From assembly GCF_000759715.1 (NCBI RefSeq), contig NZ_BBLU01000003.1, positions 1-64,000 of the forward strand: a DNA stretch of 64,000 nt, read 5' to 3'. This document shows, one piece after another, positions 54,582 to 57,726 of the stretch; position 1 is the first letter of the stretch; every line of letters begins with the position of its first letter. The translations under genes were made by a program, and so were the position numbers. Origin of the DNA: Demequina mangrovi. Its GTDB lineage: Bacteria > Actinomycetota > Actinomycetes > Actinomycetales > Demequinaceae. Under the pieces are notes generated by a model that was not told the DNA's origin, did no database searches, and worked only from the letters and a program-made list of their open reading frames with translations.

Positions 54582-54803
54582 TCACTTGTAGCGGTAGACG
54601 ATGCGGCCGCGGGACAGGTCGTACGGGCTGAGCTCCACCACCACGCGGTCCTCGGGGAGGATCCTGATGTAGTGCTGTCGCATCTTGCCGGAGATGTGAG
54701 CGAGCACCAGGTGCCCGTTCGTCAACTCCACTCGGAACGATGCGTTCGGCAGTGCTTCGACCACCACGCCCTCGACCTCGATGACGCCGTCCTTCTTAGC
54801 CAT
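54582..54803 (-). CDS. infA: Translation initiation factor IF-1
   Basis: OB-fold factor of 73 residues that binds the A-site of 30S during initiation. [38 protein letters not shown] and [12 protein letters not shown] are family-typical. The start ATG 54803 gives the standard N-terminus. It has its own strong promoter about 60 bp upstream. Confidence 0.97.
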
Positions 54804-54860: not shown

Positions 54861-54889
54861 ACTATACGGCAATCTTCCCCTGCTCTCAA
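54861..54889 (-). promoter_or_regulatory. Sigma70-type promoter of infA
   Basis: TTGAGA (54884-54889), 17-bp spacer, TATAGT (54861-54866) on the minus strand, in the only AT-rich patch of the region. A GC-rich 5-bp hairpin follows in the leader. The promoter separates infA from the LRV-like genes upstream. Confidence 0.8.
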
Positions 54890-55014: not shown

Positions 55015-55320
55015 TCAGCGGAACGAGTTGCGCAGCCGCTGGACCGCGAGACCCGAGATGCGCGGGTCGCGGTGATCCGCGAGACGGCGCACCACCGACG
55101 AGGGGGTGCGGGGGTTGGCGAGCAGCGCGCCCAGGACGTCGAGGTTCACGTCGTGGCCGAGCGAGACGAGCGCACCCATGGGGCAGTCGGAGCGACCCGC
55201 GACGGCCGCGCGCACCGCCGCGTCGCGATGCACCGCGAGGGGGAGGAGCTCGGAGCCGGACACCCCGGGATCGAGAGCCCTCATGACGTCCTCCGACGAG
55301 CCGCTGACCGGAACCACCAC
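55015..55320 (-). CDS. LRV/HEAT-like repeat protein A
   Basis: Protein of 101 residues, the shortest of three tandem paralogues. About three helical repeats of 24-26 residues share [22 protein letters not shown] and [22 protein letters not shown] patterns. The start GTG 55320 has GGGGAGG six nt upstream; GTG 55335 is an alternative. No catalytic motif is visible, so protein-protein or protein-nucleic-acid scaffolding is likely (inference). Confidence 0.7.
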
Positions 55321-55455
55321 GTCGTACCTCCCCACGCTTGCCGTTGTAGGAAATATCTACCGGTGCGGCGGGGCGGTCTCAAACCCGTGTGAGGAATCAG
55401 ACATCACGTCATGTGTCAGACACATCGCACATCTCGCCGGAGGCGTCGCACCAGG

Positions 55456-56046
55456 TCAACGGGCGGGCCTCGGCCCGCTGCGGCCCACCTCGGGCCGCGG
55501 CGCGAGCGCCCGAGCGCGCCTCTCCCCCACGGGCGAGGACTGCTCCGCGTGGGCGCTCGGGCGCACGAAGGCCGGGCGCGTCGCCGTCTGCTCCACGGCT
55601 CCCGCGGCGGGCGACCCTCCGTCCAGCGCGCGCCGCGCGAGACGGGCGACGTCCGGACGCCGGTGGAGCGCGAGCGCCTCGAGCACCTGGCGCGGCGTGG
55701 CGGAGTTCCGCGCGAGCGCCTTGAGGACGGAGGCGTCCTTGTCGCGCGCGAGCTCCCCCGCGACCCCGATCGCGATGCCTGCGCACGAGGCCAGCGCGAC
55801 CCGCACCGACCCCCGCCTGTCATGCGCGAGCGTCGCCTGCAGCGCGACCGGGCAGTCGCGACGCGAGGCGACCGCCTCCCGCACCTCGACCTCTCGATGC
55901 GCGGCGAGCACCGCCATGCGCGAGCGGTCGAGGCCCTCCGCGCGCGCCTCGTTCACGAGCGCGCGCAGGGCGTCGTCCTGACGGTCGCCGGCCATGGGCA
56001 CGCCGGACGCCGCCATGAACGCCCGCGACCAGCCGTCGTCCGCCAC
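55456..56046 (-). CDS. LRV/HEAT-like repeat protein B
   Basis: Protein of 196 residues, paralogue of its neighbours. About four repeats of 26 residues lie in residues 45-150: VREAVASRRDCPVALQATLAHD, then VRVALASC, then VLKALARNSATPRQVLEALA. The C-terminus is Pro/Arg/Ala-rich and probably disordered. The start GTG 56046 follows GGGGGAGG. Like A and C it has a DCP tripeptide in the first repeat. Confidence 0.72.
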   Translation of the reverse strand: MADDGWSRAFMAASGVPMAGDRQDDALRALVNEARAEGLDRSRMAVLAAHREVEVREAVASRRDCPVALQATLAHDRRGSVRVALASCAGIAIGVAGELARDKDASVLKALARNSATPRQVLEALALHRRPDVARLARRALDGGSPAAGAVEQTATRPAFVRPSAHAEQSSPVGERRARALAPRPEVGRSGPRPAR

Positions 56047-56154
56047 CGCGCACCTCCCCCGCGTCAGGTAGCGCGATGCTAGGCGGCGGTGATGAGCGGA
56101 AACTGGACGACAGGTGTCTATCGGGTGAAGCGGACGCGAATGCTCGGTGTCGCG

Positions 56155-56742
56155 CTACGCGTCGACCGGCGGCAGGAAGCCTCGCACGGGAGCGGTGCGC
56201 ACCGGCTTGGGCGCCGACTCCTCCTCGGCACCCTCCTCCGAGGCGGCCGCCGCGGCCGCGCGCTCCGCGAGCATCGCGTCGCGACGCTCGCGCGACCGCT
56301 CGAACACCTGGTCGCGGAGCAGCTCGGGGGCGGTGCCCGTGGCGCCGCCGCGGTCGGCCTGGGCGTCCAGCGCGGCCACGGCGGCGTCGCGCACCGCGGC
56401 CTTCCTGCTCCCGGCCAGCGCATCGAGGATCTCCGACGTGGCGGTCGGGTTGCCCGCTGCCGCGATCAGCACCGTCTCCTGGCGGTCGCGCGAGAGATGC
56501 TCGAGCAGCGACTGCAGCACGCGGGGGTTCGCGGCCAGCGCCGCCCGCACCGGCGGAGCAGAGTCGTGCGCCAGCGTCACCATGAGGCCGAACGGGCAGT
56601 CCGGGCGCGCCGCGATCGCCTCGCGCACCACCGCGTTGCGGGAACCGCCGAGCTCGAGCATGCGCTCCTTGCTCAGACCCTCGTCGGACGCCTCCTGCAC
56701 CTCGTCGCTCGCACCGGGGGCATAGTTGAACCCTCGCGCCAT
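56155..56742 (-). CDS. LRV/HEAT-like repeat protein C
   Basis: Protein of 195 residues, first of three paralogues after map. Repeats of 26 residues run from about residue 35 (VVREAIAARPDCPFGLMVTLAHD, VRAALAANPRVLQSLLEHLSRD, VLIAAAGNPTATSEILDALAG), followed by an Ala/Glu/Arg-rich helix and a Pro/Val tail. The start ATG 56742 follows GGGAGGG; an earlier ATG at 56826 would add 28 residues without family support. The repeat pattern is closest to leucine-rich repeat variant (LRV) proteins. Confidence 0.72.
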   Translation of the reverse strand: MARGFNYAPGASDEVQEASDEGLSKERMLELGGSRNAVVREAIAARPDCPFGLMVTLAHDSAPPVRAALAANPRVLQSLLEHLSRDRQETVLIAAAGNPTATSEILDALAGSRKAAVRDAAVAALDAQADRGGATGTAPELLRDQVFERSRERRDAMLAERAAAAAASEEGAEEESAPKPVRTAPVRGFLPPVDA

Positions 56743-56884
56743 CGTGCCCTCCCTCAGCACGCCGGCATCCGGGTCGCCGGCTGAGACGACGCTAACGCCT
56801 CGCCTTTGCCCCCGCGTGGCCCCCACGTAACGGCCGTATGAACCCGTGAGAGATGGCTCACACCAGGGACGATGCTCGGATACG

Positions 56885-56916: not shown

Positions 56917-57726
56917 TCAGGGGGCGACGGGGGTGACGCCGAGAGGCGCGAGGCGCGAGGCGCCGCCGTCGGAGGCGGTGAGGACCCAGATGCCGTCCTC
57001 GTGCACCGCGACCGAGTGCTCCCAGTGCGCCGCCCGGGAGCCGTCGAGGGACACGACGGTCCACTCGTCGTTCAGCACGGCGGACTCGTCCGTGCCGATG
57101 ACCAGCATCGGCTCGATCGCCAGGCACATGCCCGGCTGCACGCGCGGGCTGCGCCCCCGGGTGCGGTAGTTGGGGACGTCCGGGGCCATGTGCATGGCGG
57201 TGCCGATGCCGTGGCCCACGTAGCCGTCGATCGGGTGGAGGCCCGCCTCGTCCGCGACGCGCTCGACCGCGGCGGACACGTCGGAGATGCGCGAAGCCGA
57301 GGCGAGCGCGGCGATCCCCGCCCACAGCGAGCGCTCGGTGGCCTTCACCAGCGCGGTGTCGGCGGCGGTCAGCGGCTCGCCCACGATGAAGCTGACGGCG
57401 CTGTCGCCGTGCCAGCCGTCGACGATCGCGCCGCAGTCGATCGAGACCACGTCGCCCGGCGCGAGCACGCGGTCGCCCGGGATCCCGTGGACCACCTCCT
57501 CGTTGACCGAGATGCAGACGGTCGCGGGGAAGCCGTGGTAGCCGAGGAAGTTCGAGGTCGCCCCCGCCTCCGCGATCACGGCGGCCGCAGCCGCATCGGC
57601 GGCCGACGTCGGCGCGCCCGCGACGCACGCGGCCTTCGCCGCGGCCAGGGCACGCTCGACGATGACGCCGGCCTGCGCCATGACCCGCATCTGCTCGCGG
57701 GTCTTCAGCTCGATACGGCCGGCCAT
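56917..57726 (-). CDS. map: Methionine aminopeptidase type I
   Basis: Removes the initiator Met from new proteins. It has 269 residues. The metal-binding pair is in VSIDCGAIVDGWHGDSAV (two Asp), the His in GHGIG, and the Glu in AIEPML and in the WEHSVAVHEDG segment. It starts 6 bp after the adk stop, so it is co-transcribed with adk and secY. Confidence 0.96.
   Translation of the reverse strand: MAGRIELKTREQMRVMAQAGVIVERALAAAKAACVAGAPTSAADAAAAAVIAEAGATSNFLGYHGFPATVCISVNEEVVHGIPGDRVLAPGDVVSIDCGAIVDGWHGDSAVSFIVGEPLTAADTALVKATERSLWAGIAALASASRISDVSAAVERVADEAGLHPIDGYVGHGIGTAMHMAPDVPNYRTRGRSPRVQPGMCLAIEPMLVIGTDESAVLNDEWTVVSLDGSRAAHWEHSVAVHEDGIWVLTASDGGASRLAPLGVTPVAP

Follow-up and report, generated by a model that had tools for sequence, protein, structure and literature searches.

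RESULTS

The locus between map and infA

The window, 64,000 nucleotides of the 2.97-Mb genome of Demequina mangrovi, contains three consecutive ORFs on the minus strand between two genes, which we take to be map and infA following the first-pass annotation. The features are listed in the direction of transcription.

56917 to 57726, minus strand: map (methionine aminopeptidase), upstream flank, from the ORF list and a conserved match beside the cluster
56789 to 56842, minus strand: ORF1 promoter array and −10 site, four 11-bp units, a 4-bp gap, and TAGCGT
56155 to 56742, minus strand: ORF1, 195-aa LRV protein with four helix pairs, a long helix (138 to 171), and the tail RTAPVRGF
56076 to 56129, minus strand: ORF2 promoter array and −10 site, four 11-bp units, a 4-bp gap, and TAGCAT
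55456 to 56046, minus strand: ORF2, 196-aa LRV-like protein, a repeat part followed by a fast-evolving tail
55015 to 55320, minus strand: ORF3, 101-aa LRV protein with three helix pairs and a conserved C-terminal AVQRLRNxFR, no direct-repeat array
54861 to 54889, minus strand: sigma70-like boxes of infA itself, TTGAGA-17-TATAGT
54582 to 54803, minus strand: infA (IF-1), downstream flank

The three ORFs, which had been called from the open reading frames, are real coding sequences because their dN/dS values in five genome pairs were 0.16 to 0.34 (ORF1), 0.21 to 0.46 (ORF2), and 0.04 to 0.36 (ORF3). The highest ORF3 value came from a single pair, with 0.04 to 0.15 in the other four, and map yielded 0.07 to 0.17. 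The LRV genes are under purifying selection, which acts on ORF3 about as strongly as on map in four of the five pairs. Separated by part, the repeat regions of ORF1 and ORF2 reached 0.11 to 0.32 and the tails 0.16 to 1.02. ORF3 was initially read as 55015 to 55335, starting at a GTG five codons upstream of the start shared with the relatives. The start that yields 55015 to 55320 is more likely to be the correct one, judged by a start codon and Shine-Dalgarno sequence common to the relatives. The N-terminal motifs, MARGFNYAPGAS in ORF1 and DDGWSRAFMAASGV in ORF2, are conserved across most of the family.

Protein family and fold

The first-pass annotation had described the products as LRV-like repeat proteins, and profile and structure searches bear this out. 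ORF1 passed the curated cutoff of Pfam LRV_2 (PF25591; 31.4 bits, cutoff 27) and ORF3 that of LRV (PF01816; 27 bits, cutoff 21.6); ORF2 reached 16.8 bits against LRV, below the cutoff of 21.6. At an E value of ≤0.01, LRV matched 23 and LRV_2 27 of the 32 ORF1-type proteins, 8 and 6, respectively, of the 10 ORF2-type proteins, and LRV matched 16 of 18 ORF3-type proteins. The best profile match of the ORF1- and ORF3-type alignments was 1LRV (E values of 0.0014 and 0.00078). AlphaFold2 models, which cover ORF1 and ORF3, displayed helix pairs with a 26-residue period that start at residues 25, 51, 77, and 103 of ORF1 and 22, 48, and 74 of ORF3. The ORF1 model (mean pLDDT 88, and 96 to 98 for each block of ten residues between 21 and 130) has the shape of a HEAT-like solenoid followed by the long helix 138 to 171 and a low-confidence tail. 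Both models thus form a solenoid of paired short helices with one pair per repeat. LRV proteins are composed of alternating alpha and 3-10 helices, and the DSSP summaries of the two models give helices only as H. ORF1 to ORF3 are paralogous LRV (HEAT-like) solenoid proteins, a confirmed family assignment, and probably cytosolic.

In the fold searches, 1LRV was the Foldseek match of rank 1 for the ORF3 model (probability 0.99, TMq 0.63, rmsd 5.8), albeit with an E value of 0.3, and was not among the 50 fold-search matches listed for the ORF1 model. AlkD2 (4x8q) appeared at Foldseek rank 28 for ORF1 (E value of 0.054), and none of the three ORFs had a Pfam match to an AlkD-like family. The best VIA-align match of the ORF1 model was 3ltm_B (Z 14.0, rmsd 4.1, 128 aligned residues, 20% identity). 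The model is a helical solenoid like other HEAT/ARM proteins, for instance, the alphaRep designs or the PP2A A subunit, but this arrangement is common and many HEAT-like chains tie, so that nothing specific follows. NCBIfam profiles gave nothing over their cutoffs for ORF1 to ORF3. Defence or phage families were rejected (no PADLOC or PHROG match at an E value of ≤1), as was a known structured RNA between 54300 and 57800 (no Rfam match at an E value of ≤0.1).

Compared to known LRV proteins, ORF1 to ORF3 are short, with three to four helix-pair repeats, a 26-residue period, and extra tails, and the Demequina genes differ by being clustered paralogues with pstS-like promoters. The Azotobacter LRV protein possesses an iron-sulphur part and an N-terminal cysteine cluster. 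Such a cluster is not present here: ORF1, ORF2, and ORF3 contain 1, 2, and 1 cysteine residues, and the sole C..C among 76 LRV proteins scanned was in G017_2, a protein with an overcalled N terminus. The DCP tripeptide that had been pointed out in the first repeat of each protein is indeed present in ORF1, ORF2, and ORF3 but is not invariant. It was found in 53 of the 74 locus proteins from 25 genomes, and the other 21 have a different tripeptide at this position (DLP in 9, DVP in 3, DIP in 2, and others), so that the DCP cysteine does not define the family. Among the papers listed by a literature search, the titles and abstract openings pointed to none on the function of bacterial LRV proteins, and its listings contained no functional work on those between map and infA of Demequina.

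Paralogues and a second locus

The proposed duplication and divergence of the three genes agrees with a tree of 82 LRV proteins. Supported groups were the ORF3 type (96/95) and a middle type of 100 to 105 aa (100/91); the ORF2 type was weaker (78/59), and the ORF1 type did not form one group. A second LRV locus exists in Demequinaceae around xseB- and xseA-like genes (L104:4304-6596, L105, L106:5857-6441, L109, L110), with two LRV paralogues in four of the five stretches; the surrounding genes are presumably fumC, a sugar kinase gene, xseB, xseA, and ispH. The second-locus paralogue of G001 ends with RPTRQAPVRGF, similar to the tail of ORF1, and an AP[VI]RGF tail is present in 16 of the 28 ORF1-type proteins. 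The DNA pattern for APVRGF matched only ORF1 in its own genome, so that a list of partners could not be derived. A scan of five stretches from the xse locus gave no match over 2 bits to the phosphate-type array described below.

A distant LRV protein is encoded, with a single copy each, by 24 of 31 genomes of another family of the order and by 21 of 21 good ones. Its gene (G027 copy at L111:4565-5182; L146 to L169) is also present in genomes of 0.8 to 0.9 Mb, and 9 of the 24 genomes have rplM and rpsI no more than 1.5 kb away from it.

Distribution and synteny

Among the 44 Demequina genomes, 25 were examined at this locus, and all 25 contain one to six LRV genes between map and infA, co-directional with both, in intervals of 756 to 5,812 bp. 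The ORF1 type is present in 24 of these genomes, the ORF2 type in 19, and the ORF3 type in 21. Their occurrence in every one of the 25 genomes examined led us to reject a recent random insertion. A profile of ORF3 types matched 47 of 47 Demequinaceae genomes from three genera, and 28 of 30 LRV loci from named records belong to Demequina or Demequinaceae. In these 30 loci, map is upstream in 29 and infA downstream in 29 (L081 is without map, and L065 ends early). In the other Demequinaceae genera, the map-infA interval of G059 contains two LRV genes, and G058 and G060 have one and two LRV genes, respectively, before infA, with no map match in either stretch. LRV paralogues appear to have become established between map and infA at an early stage of Demequinaceae. 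Neither an unrelated known family with an established function nor absence from close relatives, which the first-pass annotation had named as evidence against its proposal, was found. The start of the last LRV gene is uncertain in G001, G004, and G012 (L022, L025, and L033), with a long open frame and a possible N-terminal extension.

That infA closely follows map elsewhere, as had been stated, is true for half of 14 genomes from other families of the order, with match-to-match gaps of 165 to 373 bp in 7, but not for the other 7. Five of them have a gap of 1.3 to 9 kb with no match to ORF1 to ORF3, and the remaining two, G027 and G035, have their best matches to map and infA at nonadjacent places. 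In the four long gaps checked of these five, from four other families, unrelated genes were found, such as those for an LGFP-repeat protein, MauE/DoxX, a peptidase S58, an alpha/beta hydrolase, and LuxR-type regulators. In Demequina G009 (L030:2328-6512), the last LRV gene and infA are separated by an insert that encodes a ricin-type lectin-domain protein as well as a signal-peptidase S26. Since unrelated genes occur at the site in other families and in G009, the map-infA interval looks like a permissive spot, filled with LRV genes in Demequinaceae.

Promoters of the LRV genes and of infA

Upstream of ORF1, the units TTCAT/GTTAC/GCCAC/GCAAA at positions 56842 to 56799 are followed by the −10 site TAGCGT at 56794 to 56789; upstream of ORF2, the units TTCAC/GACAC/TCCAG/CTCAT at 56129 to 56086 are followed by TAGCAT at 56081 to 56076. 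The promoter sets comprised 70 of the 74 LRV genes; G001_4, G004_4, G007_4, and G012_4, with unsure starts, were left out. In the 70 upstream regions, pentamer pairs with a spacer of 6, and consequently an 11-bp phase, occurred 20 times in sense and never in antisense orientation, and at most 2 pairs had any other spacer from 3 to 11; the pentamer set was chosen after looking at the sequences, and all array counts come from related sequences and are not independent. With one close clade collapsed, 10 phased pairs in 52 regions remained. A general 5-mer autocorrelation indicated a spacing of 11 for ORF2 (16 versus 4.8), and this spacing was not clear for ORF1 or ORF3; a clear signal emerged from the pentamer set and from alignment on the −10 site.

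Boxes with the sequence TAG[CA][CGA]T were present in 16 of 28 ORF1 and 11 of 18 ORF2 regions compared to 2.0 and 1.5 in shuffles, and in 4 of 24 regions before ORF3 versus 2.4 in shuffles. The array plus −10 site was aligned in 18 of the 28 ORF1 and 11 of the 18 ORF2 regions by taking the candidate −10 site with the best unit score per region in a fixed 48-base frame, so that the frame and the 4-bp spacing were imposed, and this alignment was likewise chosen with the sequences in view. The resulting consensus was approximately TTCAC/GTTAC/GCCAC/GCAAA for ORF1 (18 regions) and KTCACC/GACACC/GNCAGC/CTCACC for ORF2 (11 regions). The joint LRV matrix was trained on 26 of the 29 aligned rows, with the poor ORF1 rows G005_1, G012_1, and G019_1 dropped. 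An ORF1-trained matrix recovered 15 of 18 ORF2 regions above 99% of the shuffles, an ORF2-trained matrix recovered 16 of 28 ORF1 regions at this level, and the ORF1 promoter of the window scored 16.3 bits with the matrix trained on ORF2-type promoters alone.

Upstream of infA, boxes resembling TTGAGA-17-TATAGT were located at −84 to −90 in all 25 genomes, and 23 of these genomes matched them in 9 or more of the 12 bases (shuffles, 0.6%). Sigma70-like boxes of this quality preceded 1 of 28 ORF1, 0 of 18 ORF2, and 1 of 24 ORF3 genes. Dependence on transcription shared with infA was rejected from these sequences, given that infA has its own boxes in all 25 genomes.

Similarity to pstS and GDPD promoters

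A PHO box consists of two direct repeats of 11 nt, with the sequence GTTCACC in Streptomyces coelicolor, and GlpQ/UgpQ belong to the common phosphate-starvation enzymes (PMC4415409). With the matrix from 26 LRV promoters, an array in 11-bp register with the −10 site was detected upstream of pstS at all 30 loci, which are the best-scoring 30 of 42 genomes with a pstS match; 29 of these best 30 of 42 exceeded the 95% level set by 67 control upstream regions, and 27 exceeded every control. The corresponding value for the infA regions was 3 of 25. Among the same best 30 of 42 and with the −10 site removed, the joint matrix placed 24 above the 95% level and 12 above all controls, a matrix from ORF2 only 29 and 20, and a matrix from ORF1 only 8 and 6, with 23 in register; the ORF1-only matrix with the −10 site gave 25 of 30. 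Conversely, with a matrix trained on pstS, 18 of 18 ORF2, 11 of 28 ORF1, and 6 of 24 ORF3 regions exceeded the 95% level of the controls. The ORF2 promoter of the window was above all 67 controls, and its ORF1 promoter was not among the 11. All ORF3 scores but one (G024_2) were negative with the pstS-trained matrix, and the best of the 24 ORF3 scores with the LRV-trained matrix, −6.5, was about the control 95% level of −6.6. ORF2-type and, less clearly, ORF1-type promoter arrays resemble the pstS array of the same genus, as shown by computation, with most of this signal contributed by ORF2; the array in the ORF2 promoter is PHO-box-like, and ORF3 lacks such an array.

A strict four-unit pattern based on the LRV promoters matched 27 times in 17 of the 44 Demequina genomes, compared to 2 matches of the reversed control, and had no match in the other 27 genomes. 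Twenty-three matches were, judged by position, at LRV genes, 3 were before GDPD genes in three genomes, and 1 was before the gene for a secreted LTD-domain protein. A distance of 7 bp separates the end of the GDPD arrays from the called start, so that only a near-leaderless transcript would be compatible with them. In a scan of 0.90 Mb of Demequinaceae context, both strands counted, 45 matches of >4 bits were at called ORF1 or ORF2 genes, partly by construction because the species overlap with the training set. Of 7 other matches, 4 fit ORF2 promoters with overcalled starts, 2 are unexplained, and the seventh coincided with an ORF1 promoter but had the reverse orientation. In genera outside the training set, the region before the first LRV gene scored 26.9 bits in G059 and 13.6 bits in G060, and the LRV-trained matrix found no array before the LRV gene of the held-out genome G058.

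Two-unit KTYAC-N6-KTYAC sites occur 32 times in the genome of D. mangrovi versus 6 times for the reversed control. Some of them precede phoU, its divergent histidine kinase gene, and pstS, and a gene for an OmpR-type regulator is located between the kinase gene and pstS, near phoU. Such sites are also present before several genes for secreted or binding proteins (GH53, NMT1-like, DUF4349), which are perhaps targets of MtrA or GlnR.

DISCUSSION

The explanation that we favor, with somewhat better than even confidence, is that the products of ORF1 and ORF2 are LRV adaptors induced by phosphate starvation under control of PhoP, with ORF3 probably as the constitutive member of the set. The promoters share with those of the Pho-regulon genes pstS and glpQ/ugpQ the 11-bp units in register with the −10 site, although the resemblance is weaker for ORF1 than for ORF2, and the LRV products are repeat proteins without a known enzymatic or transport role. 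Phosphate limitation would activate the two-component pair beside pstS, and the regulator would occupy the arrays and, judging from their geometry, recruit the polymerase to the −10 site. ORF1 and ORF2 would then accumulate when phosphate runs out. More tentatively, both may function as adaptors whose tail (RTAPVRGF for ORF1) and solenoid groove would hold protein partners, and might in this way reset some process during phosphate limitation. This adaptor role is suggested because of the fold class and of the conservation of the tail motif in ORF1-type proteins. A constitutive ORF3 is probable because it is constrained like map and has no array.

Naming the regulator needs to consider that binding sites of related regulators look alike. 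GlnR sites are similar direct repeats. MtrA sites share 11-bp direct repeats with PhoP sites (PMC13189361, PMC5650626). We therefore infer PhoP from the architecture shared with pstS and GDPD genes, which is firmer for ORF2 than for ORF1, and the fitting regulator gene between phoU with its kinase and pstS supports the array as a PHO box that a PhoP-type regulator would bind. If MtrA or GlnR, also of the OmpR family, bound the arrays instead, the LRV genes would be part of envelope or osmotic responses or of nitrogen responses. Many of the 32 two-unit sites, which are before genes not evidently related to phosphate, are consistent with this alternative, as is the ORF1 array, by itself a weak match to pstS. 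It is nevertheless rather unlikely, since the longer array in register with the −10 site is common to pstS in all of the best 30 of 42 loci and also precedes GDPD genes in three genomes.

The position in a core translation cluster had led the first-pass annotation to suggest a link to translation or nascent chains, with proteins that bind the ribosome or act together with IF-1 or Map. The co-directional arrangement in all 25 Demequina genomes examined, the constraint on ORF3 similar to that on map in four of five pairs, and the distant LRV gene adjoining rplM-rpsI in 9 of 24 genomes of another family would agree with a position that reflects function. The suggestion nonetheless found no support: infA possesses its own boxes in all 25 genomes, pstS-like promoters precede ORF2 and, with less clarity, ORF1, the site is occupied by unrelated genes in G009 as well as in other families, related LRV genes exist beside xseA/xseB, and no rplM was found within the 1.5-kb flanks in 15 of the 24 genomes. 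We regard a role in translation as improbable, and the LRV proteins more likely belong to phosphate stress. A combined version, in which starvation-induced LRV adaptors encoded within the ribosomal gene cluster attach by groove and tail to the ribosome or to a factor of initiation or processing and thereby link protein synthesis to the supply of phosphate, ORF3 being the constitutive core and ORF1 and ORF2 being exchange partners made during starvation, seems very improbable. There is also little probability that the genes are lineage-specific paralogues of a duplication-prone family without a dedicated role in a permissive intergenic spot. Copy numbers from one to six with no type being universal, the fast evolution of the tails, and the other inserts taken up by the spot fit this possibility, but the repeat parts are under purifying selection, most of the family retains the N-terminal motifs, and arrays are found in three genera.

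Little work has been devoted to the LRV family of bacterial repeat proteins, for which the conserved phosphate-type promoter provides a testable condition. The map-infA case is also a warning against inferring function from the place of a gene in a ribosomal cluster. If phosphate control of ORF1 and ORF2 were confirmed, adaptor-like repeat proteins would join the transporters and scavenging enzymes in the Pho regulon of Demequinaceae.
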